Source: Tautonia plasticadhaerens (GTDB taxonomy: Bacteria > Planctomycetota > Planctomycetia > Isosphaerales > Isosphaeraceae). Taken from it: a DNA stretch of 64,000 nucleotides. Position numbers and translations under genes: made by a program. The stretch spans positions 5,146,001-5,210,000 of the forward strand of contig NZ_CP036426.1 in assembly GCF_007752535.1 (NCBI RefSeq). Direction: 5' to 3'. How positions within the stretch are numbered: position 1 is the stretch's first letter; every line of letters starts with the position of its first letter. Shown here in pieces: positions 20,311 through 23,553 of this stretch. The notes under the pieces are model-generated. The model saw only the letters and a list, made by a program, of their open reading frames with translations. It did no database searches and was not told the DNA's origin.

Positions 20311-21504
20311 ATGCGCAACTGGAGCAGAGTGTTCGCGGTGCTGATGGTCGGCTGGTTCGCCCCGTCGCAGGCCGAAGCCCAACAGGGTGGGACCGAAGAG
20401 TTGCTGAATTCATGGTTCCAGGAATGGGCGGGGAACCCCTCGAATTTCAACGAGGCCGCCGACGAATTGCCGGGGTGGTTTGCGGTCGATCGCGGGCGGT
20501 TGAGCGTCTTCCCGGAGGGCGTCCGATACACGTACGACTTGCCCGAGGGGCGGAAGCTCGAACCGCCCGAGGAGCAGCAGATCCGGGGCGCGATGACCAG
20601 CCTGCTCGCGAAGTTCCTCAAGTCCGACATCGACCAGTTCTTCCCCAGGGTCGGCGATGCCGAGCGCCAGTCGATCCGAACGACGGTCCAGGGGAGTCTC
20701 GAGGTCGTCGTCCAAGAGGCTCGTGGCGAGCGGATAGATCCGCCCGCCCCGGTCGCCGACGAGGGACCGGTCCAGGCGTCTCCGCAGGGCTGGTTCCTGG
20801 CTTCGCCTCAGCACCTTTCCTCGCCGCAACTGGCCAGCAGCCCGACCTCGACAGTGCAGACCTACGCGCCGGCAGATGCCTACGAGAGCTACTGGTCGGG
20901 CCGATATGCTGAGGCGGCGGCGAGGCTTCGCGGGCTCGTCGAGGCCGACCCCGACGACGCCCGGGCCTGGTACTTCCTGGCGTTGAGCGAGCGGGCCTCG
21001 GGCGCGCCGGCCCGGGCCGAGGCCTCGCTCCGCCGGGGCGCCGTCGCCGAGTCGCGCGGGGGCTCGGGCCGGGAGGTCTCCCTGGCGCTGACCCGCGTCC
21101 AGGGGCCGGATCGCCAGTGGCTCGAGGCCGCCCGGTCCCTGCCGGCGGGCCGGGTGGGGATGGACCACTCCCTGGATGTGGCGACGCAGAGCTACTGGTC
21201 GGGCCGATATGGCGAGGCGGCGGCGAGGCTTCGCGGGCTCGTCGAGGCCGACCCCGACGACGCCCGGGCCTGGTACTTCCTGGCGTTGAGCGAGCGGGCC
21301 TCGGGCGCGCCGGCCCGGGCCGAGGCCTCGCTCCGCCGGGGCGCCGTCGCCGAGTCGCGCGGGGGCTCGGGCCGGGAGGTCTCCCTGGCGCTGACCCGCG
21401 TCCAGGGGCCGGATCGCCAGTGGCTCGAAGCCGCCCGGTCGGTCGCCCGCGGGCGACCGACCGGTGAGACGGACCTGGCTTCCCGATTCGTCTCCATCCC
21501 ATGA
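20311..21504 (+). CDS. Exported TPR-like protein with internal duplication
   Basis: 397 residues with a signal peptide (VFAVLMVGWFAPSQAEA). A globular segment of about 150 residues is followed by two near-identical 101-residue units, each starting SYWSGRY.EAAARLRGLVE and containing ARAWYFLALSERASG, a TPR-type helix pair. The units come from a 303-base tandem duplication. The gene is separated from the operon upstream by 144 bases and has a fair ribosome site (GGGGGTGA), so it may be transcribed with it or alone. TPR-like units normally bind partner proteins. Confidence 0.7.
   Translation: MRNWSRVFAVLMVGWFAPSQAEAQQGGTEELLNSWFQEWAGNPSNFNEAADELPGWFAVDRGRLSVFPEGVRYTYDLPEGRKLEPPEEQQIRGAMTSLLAKFLKSDIDQFFPRVGDAERQSIRTTVQGSLEVVVQEARGERIDPPAPVADEGPVQASPQGWFLASPQHLSSPQLASSPTSTVQTYAPADAYESYWSGRYAEAAARLRGLVEADPDDARAWYFLALSERASGAPARAEASLRRGAVAESRGGSGREVSLALTRVQGPDRQWLEAARSLPAGRVGMDHSLDVATQSYWSGRYGEAAARLRGLVEADPDDARAWYFLALSERASGAPARAEASLRRGAVAESRGGSGREVSLALTRVQGPDRQWLEAARSVARGRPTGETDLASRFVSIP
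20887..21189 (+). repeat. Tandem repeat copy 1 (303 bases)
   Basis: This copy matches 21190-21446 almost perfectly over its first 257 bases. Differences seen are GCT versus GGC at the codon after CGATAT and GAG versus GAA near the end. The last 46 bases form a spacer. The unit is a whole number of codons (101), so the reading frame is kept. Confidence 0.9.
21190..21446 (+). repeat. Tandem repeat copy 2
   Basis: Second copy of the TPR-like unit starting at AGCTACTGG. The near absence of synonymous differences from copy 1 shows either a very recent duplication or continuing gene conversion. Confidence 0.9.
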
Positions 21505-22383: not shown

Positions 22384-23553
22384 TCAGCGGAGATACCCAT
22401 CCAGCCAGCCGCGGGAGCCCTGGGGCGGGATCCGGTCGGCGACGTCGGTGCCGTCGGCGATCTCGAAGGTGACCGCCAGGGGAAACCGCCCCTCGGGCGC
22501 GCCGCCGGTGAACGGGCCGGCGCCCCAGAACTCGCCGAGGGCAACGAGCTCCAGCCGCACGACCCAGCCCCCCTCGACCTCCACGACGCCGAGCAGCTCG
22601 GCCTCGTACCCGCGGTCGCCGCGGTTGGTCTCGAGGTGGACGGAGCCTTCGAGCCGGCCGTCGCGGAGCCGCAGCTCGATCGAGCGAATCTCGCCCTCCT
22701 CCCACATCGGCGGCTCGCCCCGGGTGTTGTCGATGAGGTGGAACCGGGCGATCCGCCGCCGGAGAGGCTCCGGGACTTCGCCCCGGGCCAGCGCCTCGTG
22801 CTCGGCGGCCGTGACCCAGAGGTTGTCGCGGGAGACGGACTCCTGGAAGATCCGCCGCCAGGGGTCGTCCGTCGGCCCGTAGCCGCCGAGTACCTTGGCC
22901 CGGACGCGGAGGACGAGGCCGCCCACGGGCGGCTCGACGTTGTATCGCGGGTCGGCCTCGTCGCTCGAGATCGCCTCGACGGCCCGGCCGGCCGCGGGGC
23001 TCGCCTCGAACTCGGCGAGCTTCTGCGTCATCAAGCGCCGGAGCTTGGCCGGGTCGCGGTTGTTGTTGTAGAGCAGGAGGTCGCCGCCGGCCGTGGCGAT
23101 GTAGAACCCCTGCGTCGTGTCCTCGAAGTCGTCCCGGGGGCCCTGAGCGGCGATCCGGCGGTAGAAGTCGCCCTCCGCGTCGTCCTGCCGGCGCTGGTAG
23201 GCTTGGTCAATCGCGACGGGGACGAAGCGGGTCTTCAGCAGGTCGACGATGATCGGTTCGGCGAAGGTCGACGCACGGTCGAGCACCCCGTTGTTTCAGG
23301 TGCAGCCGAGCGGGTGGCCGTCCATCGACCAGATGAAGATCGGCTTGCCTTCCTGTGCGGCGGCCCGCTGGGCGTCCAGCAGGCTGACCTTCCAGGGGAT
23401 CGTCCGCCAGGCGTCGTCGGGGTCCGGCCGAAGCTCCGCGAGCAGGCGGCGGGTCTCGACCTCCGTGAGCTCGCCGCCGCGGCCGTCGGCCGCCGGGGCC
23501 CACAGGGCGAGCGACCCGCAGAGGAGGCCCGTCGCGGTTCGTATCATTCGCAT
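22384..23553 (-). CDS. Thioredoxin-like exported protein with in-frame TGA (candidate selenoprotein)
   Basis: One frame of 390 codons from ATG 23553 to the stop at 22384, crossed by a single TGA at 23296-23298 (codon 86). The N-terminus is a signal peptide (TATGLLCGSLALWAPAADG). Before the TGA the protein reads GKPIFIWSMDGHPLGCT, and after it NNGVLDRASTFAEP. The first part matches the strand leading into the redox loop of a thioredoxin fold, so the TGA falls two residues after a Cys, where a redox Cys or Sec is expected (C-T-U). Codon use is uniform on both sides and no other stop or shift occurs in 1.1 kb. Without readthrough, two separate products of 85 and 300 residues would result, the second lacking a ribosome site. 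Alternatives are a recent nonsense mutation or a sequence error. Confidence 0.6.
23268..23282 (-). promoter_or_regulatory. Possible bacterial SECIS hairpin
   Basis: On the minus-strand transcript, 13 bases after the in-frame TGA, TCGAC pairs with GTCGA around the loop CGTGC. Bacterial SECIS elements are small stem-loops just after the Sec codon with a G near the apex of the loop, and the spacing fits. The stem is only five pairs, so this is weak support. Confidence 0.3.

Follow-up and report, generated by a model that had tools for sequence, protein, structure and literature searches.

A 2026 review and catalogue states that it covers 119 families and subfamilies, and among the entries in its accessible part VPGUxxT (NF041383/NF041382, catalogue name OS_HP5) is assigned one selenocysteine (Sec, U), whereas Sec.1 (PF13192) is thioredoxin-like with a CxU motif (PMC13188914). 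In the available portion of an account of 2006, GrdA is a selenoprotein without known Cys homologues, and FdhA, SelW-like and GrdB are given few or no Cys homologues in Sec-containing organisms (PMC1794560). Selenoproteins without Cys homologues may be missed, according to the accessible text of the paper on deep-Sep (PMC12013277), and selenoproteins have been described in two planctomycetes, as stated in the part of that source at hand (PMC4807772).

Here we describe a gene from the planctomycete Tautonia plasticadhaerens, located in a window of 64,000 nucleotides (the whole stretch of DNA analysed, in which all positions below are counted). On the evidence of its sequence, and without biochemical demonstration, this gene very probably encodes a selenoprotein: SelB and a Sec-tRNA(UCA) would decode the UGA at codon 86, aided by a SECIS hairpin that lies 18 nt further on, to give a full-length product of 389 residues. 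The features are the following:

22384..23553, minus strand: selenoprotein gene (reading of the open frame, and homologues aligned over most of its length)
23482..23553, minus strand: residues 1-24, putative export signal, MRMIRTATGLLCGSLALWAPAADG (judged by eye; pLDDT below 50 over residues 1-26)
22993..23421, minus strand: predicted thioredoxin-fold domain, residues 45-187 (AlphaFold2 model and structural matches)
23302..23304, minus strand: Cys84 (conserved as Cys in 89 of the 96 core Sec members that are occupied at this position)
23296..23298, minus strand: in-frame UGA, codon 86, read as Sec86 (column in homologues, and Sec machinery)
23268..23282, minus strand: bacterial SECIS hairpin at a spacing of 18 nt from the UGA, its CGUGC loop (23277-23273) closed by a stem in which 23282-23278 pairs with 23272-23268
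22387..22986, minus strand: predicted C-terminal domain, residues 190-389, mostly antiparallel strands

The frame opens with an ATG at 23553 and closes with a terminal TGA stop at 22384-22386, its 390 codons yielding 389 residues when the internal UGA is read as Sec. The first-pass annotation had given the coordinates 22384-23553, which are correct, without stating that the gene lies on the minus strand; it had also claimed a single TGA at 23296-23298 within a 390-codon frame ending in a normal stop, as the translation bears out, and a similar coding character on either side of it, with which both base composition and substitution pattern agree. This sole internal TGA stands in the context GHPLGCT-TGA-NNGVLD, two residues past Cys84. 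In the 85 codons that precede the TGA the G+C content at codon positions 1, 2 and 3 is 0.71, 0.56 and 0.93, and in the 303 codons that follow it 0.75, 0.47 and 0.95. In comparisons with four homologues, synonymous change (pS) always exceeds non-synonymous change (pN), both upstream and downstream of the TGA, for example 0.49 vs 0.21 before and 0.45 vs 0.19 after the TGA for L018, the smallest gap being that of L030 (0.39 vs 0.31 and 0.43 vs 0.28, respectively).

The open reading frames around family members (loci L018-L135, and a second set of 24 loci, 20 of them new) include no widely conserved partner. The largest neighbour cluster, found at 14 of the 24-locus set, was rejected, being by position mostly an antisense shadow of the gene itself. 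One upstream gene recurs in 8 related genomes, two copies of which were scanned without a Pfam match, and the Pfam matches of nine neighbours (PhoD, DUF7133/NPCBM/HEAT, FG-GAP, VWA, sulfatase, PfkB) have no common theme. Separately, the plus strand of the window carries at 20311-21504 a gene for a TPR protein (Pfam) with a block of about 75 residues repeated almost unchanged.

Homologues are frequent among planctomycetes. The family is present in at least 102 of the 392 sampled Planctomycetota genomes (about a quarter), and a rerun of the profile over the 392 genomes returned matches of E 1e-8 or lower in at least 105; only part of the genome matches were taken on to locus comparison. With tblastn over 34 loci, 34 of 34 rows spanning residue 86 stop exactly there, with no other stop in the aligned part (the rows derive from 33 loci, own copy included, L043 having no row across residue 86). 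A 38-row profile searched over 134 loci (L018-L051, L056-L135 and L198-L217) returned 144 matches, of which the 120 scoring at least 100 bits are taken as the core; 116 of these have a residue at the Sec column, counts being of sequences, some of them closely related. The codon there is TGA in 108 of the 116 (own copy included), with 6 Ser (TCA 2, TCG 2, TCC 1, AGC 1), 1 Asp, 1 Pro and no Cys. Weaker matches have 7 TGA and 2 gaps between 60 and 100 bits, 6 TGA, 1 TGC and 1 gap between 30 and 60 bits, and 1 TGC and 6 gaps under 30 bits. The proposal that homologues would have Cys or Sec at this position holds for Sec; the remainder of the core has Ser, Asp or Pro, and Cys (TGC) is confined to two remote relatives under 40 bits, L198 (36.7 bits) and L067 (24.3 bits), whose own relatives have TGA.

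The surroundings of the column are also conserved in core Sec members, with T, V or G at position -1, mostly N or G at +1, Asn at +2 in 96 of 97 and Gly at +3 in 93 of 97. The eight non-Sec members are all devoid of Cys at -2 as well, and they require at least 4 changes on a tree of 103 rows. This tree was built by a quick method, is unrooted (the midpoint root serves for drawing only), joins the long branches of L057 and L133 in a grouping that is not trusted, and omits 8 of the 111 rows in which the column is occupied (five from L071-L075, L033 and L049 as truncated sequences, and the one that L135 gives on the plus strand). From it we infer, with these reservations, that Sec was lost several times without conversion to Cys. 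Neighbouring copies on the same strand are seen at three loci: two with TGA in L038, one with TGA beside one with Asp in L056, and one with TGA beside one with Ser in L065.

An exact-peptide scan of genome contigs found 13 candidate stretches, 4 of which are relatives; these are all in planctomycete records, and all 4 have a stop at residue 86. A plasmid search for relatives and a search of viral contigs with a single peptide pattern each gave 0 matches. Since the searches outside Planctomycetota were limited to exact peptides and a single pattern, a Cys form in another phylum is not excluded.

More distant loci show other arrangements. In eight of them (L200, L203, L204, L205, L206, L071, L073 and L208), which form related groups of selenoprotein-like character scoring 30-90 bits to the profile, a Cys directly precedes the TGA (C-U), as in DDxRC-TGA-VFAGAxREAVFS; NCBIfam models scanned on L203, L204, L206, L071, L073 and L208 gave none over cut-off. 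A related group (L072, L074, L075) has a TGA in or near GGL-TGA-SAGHSLRAVTLSE, without Cys at -2. One of the C-U relatives, L206:9-1934, matches Metal_resist (CpxP/Spy-like, PF13801) with 36.1 bits against a cut-off of 29.2.

The protein was modelled with AlphaFold2 from five sequences, the TGA being read as Cys (mean pLDDT 79.1, pTM 0.81). In this model the N-terminal domain adopts a thioredoxin fold: residues 45-187 find their best structural match in 3f9u_B (Z 13.2, rmsd 2.8, 124 residues aligned), followed by AGR3, 3ph9_B (Z 12.7, rmsd 2.4, 117 aligned), 7tkv_A (Z 11.7, rmsd 3.5, 130 aligned) and 2dlx (Z 11.4, rmsd 3.6, 125 aligned). By itself Foldseek found nothing that reached E 0.001, its best match being again 3ph9_B at 9.5e-3. 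A strand ends at residue 77 of the model, the following loop bears Cys84 and Sec86, and a helix runs from residue 87; Sec86 is thus placed just before the helix by the model, and at the second Cys of VPG[U/C]xxC by profile alignment. The motif Cys84-Thr85-Sec86-Asn87 is of the CxU type and does not conform to CxxC. The thioredoxin-like redox loop first put forward is refined in that its motif is neither the classical CxxC nor UxxC, and in that the fold rests on the structure model, no Pfam thioredoxin model scoring over its cut-off.

Pfam gives the window protein no match at E 0.01, and among 38 family members PF03190 is found in 2 (best 0.0057) and PF13899 in 1 (0.0011); on the window protein PF03190 reaches 12.1 bits against a cut-off of 27, and PF13899 is not listed. 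NF041383 is its only NCBIfam match, at 20.3 bits vs a cut-off of 275, and a sequence-profile search of solved structures returned 5 matches up to E 1, none of them below 0.5. The C-terminal domain, when folded alone, has a mean pLDDT of 77.9 and a pTM of 0.77; none of the 999 chains aligned to it attained Z 8, and the best match (Z 6.3, rmsd 4.5, 131 aligned) is, on the scale of the comparison tool, too low to indicate anything beyond a shared arrangement.

Broadly, the product would probably be exported, an inference, with an N-terminal thioredoxin fold followed by a separate beta-rich domain, both as modelled. We infer, as a probable though unsettled assignment, that Sec86 is the attacking residue of a cell-envelope thiol/selenol redox enzyme and that Cys84 would usually serve as its resolving partner through a selenenylsulfide. 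The Cys84-Sec86 pair cannot be general, since 7 of the 96 core Sec members are without Cys84; these would draw on a thiol from elsewhere. The chemistry of the family seems to depend on selenium, the site having either Sec or a non-redox residue with no Cys form seen. As for the role, our best guess is the repair or protection of envelope proteins against oxidation, the substrate remaining unidentified; this guess is drawn from VPGUxxT, which joins Thioredoxin_7 to a segment matching methionine sulfoxide reductase (over the Pfam cut-off in 1 of 2 members).

Sec86 could also be real and yet act mainly as a ligand of a metal or metalloid, outside thiol redox. A Cys and a Sec two residues apart might by inference bind soft metals, and the Metal_resist domain of L206 points the same way; against this, that fusion is the only one among 10 relatives scanned, and a thiol-redox character is shared by the fold matches and by the nearest named family, so that we regard metal binding as the main function as doubtful and retain the redox assignment.

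The machinery for Sec insertion is complete in the genome of T. plasticadhaerens (9.4 Mb, 6 contigs). A search for selA, selB, selD and a tRNA-Sec had been suggested as a check of the selenoprotein reading, and all four were found: tRNA-Sec with 65.9 bits (cut-off 47) and the anticodon TCA (the UCA decoding tRNA), selA with 513.2 bits (cut-off 267.9) adjoining selB on the same strand with 348.5 bits (cut-off 242.25), and selD with 351.8 bits (cut-off 125). This selD (L052, C1:1193090-1194028) has one in-frame TGA, and its product is for that reason probably a selenoprotein too.

Across the sample, selA is found in 246 of the 392 Planctomycetota genomes (239 over cut-off), and in 93 of the 102 family-carrying genomes among the matches listed (Fisher p = 2e-13, which is only a guide because the genomes are related). 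Nine family genomes are without selA. Five of them (G164, G214, G264, G280 and G082) have selB over cut-off; TGA copies occur in G214, G264 and G280 (core) and in G164 (peripheral), these four being fragmented drafts of 480-990 contigs, and in G082 the aligned portion begins past the Sec column. The other four have neither selA nor selB, and their column codon is TCA (Ser) in G097, TGC (Cys, in a remote relative) in G141, TCG (Ser) in G174 and CCC (Pro) in G296. The remote relative L198, with its TGC, comes from G356, absent from the selA list as well. TGA copies co-occur with selA or selB in the sampled genomes, a scope that excludes the four named MAGs L018-L021. Non-Sec copies are also present in selA-bearing genomes (G110, G161, G170, G309 and G375), which counts against a strict rule.

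The hairpin that had been pointed out past the TGA at a SECIS-like distance could be confirmed, 18 nt downstream and covarying across relatives. The bSECIS model, as given in the accessible portion of the catalogue, comprises a loop of 3-9 nt, a stem of 4-16 bp, a G in the first two loop positions, a spacing of 16-37 nt and an MFE of -7.5 or lower (PMC13188914); here a loop of 5 nt, a stem of 5 bp, a G in second position and a spacing of 18 nt all fit. The energy limit of -7.5 is met with flanking pairs (-8.5 kcal/mol over 29 nt, -11.1 over 42 nt) and missed by the bare 5-bp stem (-4.3).

Covariation was scanned over position pairs 4-33 nt apart in the 54 nt from the TGA, against a null in which codons were exchanged at random between sequences sharing the amino acid at that codon (2000 permutations, relatedness ignored). 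Among 30 window-like members the top pair of the scan is +17/+29 (z 7.1, p at most 0.0005), which joins 23281, the third base of Leu91, to 23269, the third base of Ser95, both of them synonymous positions. This wobble-wobble pair is Watson-Crick in 29 of 30 members (G-C 13, C-G 10, U-A 6) and U-G in the thirtieth, vs a null of 0.36. All five stem pairs form in 26 of the 30 and the inner four in 29, and the loop is CGUGC, CGUGA or CGUGU in 27. Arg93, whose codon contributes the GU of the loop, is encoded by CGT in 27 of 30 members vs 85 of the 978 other Arg codons of the same genes, and 26 of 30 have a hairpin with a 5-nt NGUNN loop and at least 4 pairs, a number that never exceeded 6 in 300 synonymous resamplings.

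When the stem was tested over 29 distinct rows, 89.1% of cells were paired vs 77.5 in shuffles, and the covariation score was 0.318 vs 0.116 (0 of 500 shuffles as high in either case; versions of the stem slid along the alignment scored 0.024-0.078). One of the five measures, further pair types, was not distinctive (9 vs 8.3, a value reached in 202 of 500 shuffles), and the outermost drawn pair is unpaired in 15 of the 29 rows. RNAalifold gives the same 5-bp stem unprompted.

The signal is weaker and shifted in the other 64 sequences. The hairpin rule, which was defined after the data had been seen, is met by 30 of the 64 (null mean 4.8, maximum 10 in 300 resamplings), in several registers with loops at +21, +24, +25 or +29; the top pair of their scan, +29/+43 (z 4.0), lies outside the stem, and +17/+29 is Watson-Crick in 53% vs 35%. 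The 8 non-Sec members all fail this rule, which against 30/64 amounts only to p about 0.01. Folding energy compared with synonymous resampling in 48-nt windows shows no clear excess past the TGA: the mean z is -0.44 at offset -12 (93 sequences), -0.21 at 0 and +0.44 at +24 (94 each), and an equally low value, -0.46, recurs at +240. With folding energy unremarkable, the evidence for a SECIS is its covariation, not its stability. Bacterial SECIS elements are not expected to appear in an Rfam scan, and Rfam run over the whole 64-kb window at gathering thresholds gave 0 matches.

The UGA might be read in some other way, by plain readthrough, by a near-cognate tRNA such as tRNA-Trp, or under a reassigned code. 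Readthrough would likewise yield conservation over the full length, but TGA copies accompany selA or selB in the sampled genomes, UGA also terminates this same gene, the SECIS-like hairpin covaries, and Trp codons are absent from the column in all members; such decoding is in our judgement very improbable. A pseudogene, or else an ordinary gene of thioredoxin-like type interrupted by a nonsense mutation or an error of sequencing, is still harder to sustain, for although a single in-frame stop in an otherwise open frame resembles a recent lesion, the same TGA column is shared by 108 of the 116 core relatives (own copy included), non-synonymous change stays below synonymous change on both sides of the TGA, and the hairpin covaries. 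Nor is there any real prospect that two products are made, one a peptide of 85 residues and the other a protein of 300 residues with a new start at the GTG at 23286, since the two mechanical open reading frames listed (23296-23553 and 22384-23286) join within the modelled thioredoxin fold, at the loop directly before a helix, with strong residue conservation on either side. The selenoprotein reading of the first-pass annotation is thus supported by the Sec machinery, the TGA column in homologues and the covarying hairpin.

Gene callers treating UGA as a stop would, we infer, cut each TGA copy, and the family offers a direct test of selenium retention, Sec against Cys. It also looks like one of those selenoproteins that may go unnoticed for want of Cys homologues. 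We can advance only tentatively, as somewhat less likely to be right than wrong, the broader view of a large superfamily of exported planctomycete selenoproteins with CxU or CU thioredoxin folds, the chemistry of whose main family would be impossible with sulfur, the site having been kept as Sec or abandoned over the sampled history, without conversion to Cys. If true, the family escapes search methods based on Cys/TGA pairs and becomes a test case for selenium-requiring reactions.

No Pfam or NCBIfam 20.0 model claims the family (38 members scanned), and no row in the accessible part of the catalogue table could be matched to it, rows with only CDD or PANTHER identifiers lying outside the comparison (PMC13188914). 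The family is apparently uncatalogued, an earlier listing in the supplement of the planctomycete study remaining possible in view of the portion of that source available (PMC4807772). Sec.1 resembles it in being thioredoxin-like with a CxU motif, but none of the 38 family members matches PF13192 at E 0.01. GrdA is alike in lacking known Cys homologues, as stated in 2006, but its motif is CxxU in the available text of the catalogue (PMC13188914), and it is not matched by the 38 members. Among the chains compared, the closest predicted folds are those of Thioredoxin_7 (PF13899), Thioredox_DsbH (PF03190) and the AGR/UAS proteins; unlike Thioredoxin_7 and Thioredox_DsbH, the family has CxU instead of CxxC and an extra C-terminal domain, and the window protein does not reach the gathering cut-off.

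VPGUxxT occurs in 19 of 149 sampled Planctomycetota genomes (13 over cut-off). Five of its members (L163, L169, L170, L173 and L175) have a second in-frame TGA about 120 residues past VPGU, in the context F[AG]M[TG]-U-[YF]W.GE or one close to it, and the other 9 of the 14 members read have Cys at that position; against PF01625, the segment scores 28.7 bits in L170 (cut-off 23.7) and 17.2 bits, under the cut-off, in L172. The likeness to our family consists of a weak profile match over residues 52-121 (E 3.6e-4, 20.3 bits) and a profile-profile probability of 89.6% over residues 51-185, and NF041383 matches 3 of the 38 family members at E 0.01 or better (best 0.00035). The two differ in several respects. 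The score of the window protein is far under the cut-off of 275; the VPGUxxT motif is UxxC or CxxC, and core Sec members do not show VPG[U/C]xxC; Cys forms are common in VPGUxxT (5 of the 14 members read, the other 9 having Sec); and the VPGUxxT members scanned have Thioredoxin_7 over cut-off in 2 of 2 and PMSR (methionine sulfoxide reductase) in 1 of 2, whereas the window protein has neither. VPGUxxT is the nearest named family, and the family described here stands apart from it, failing both its score and its motif.
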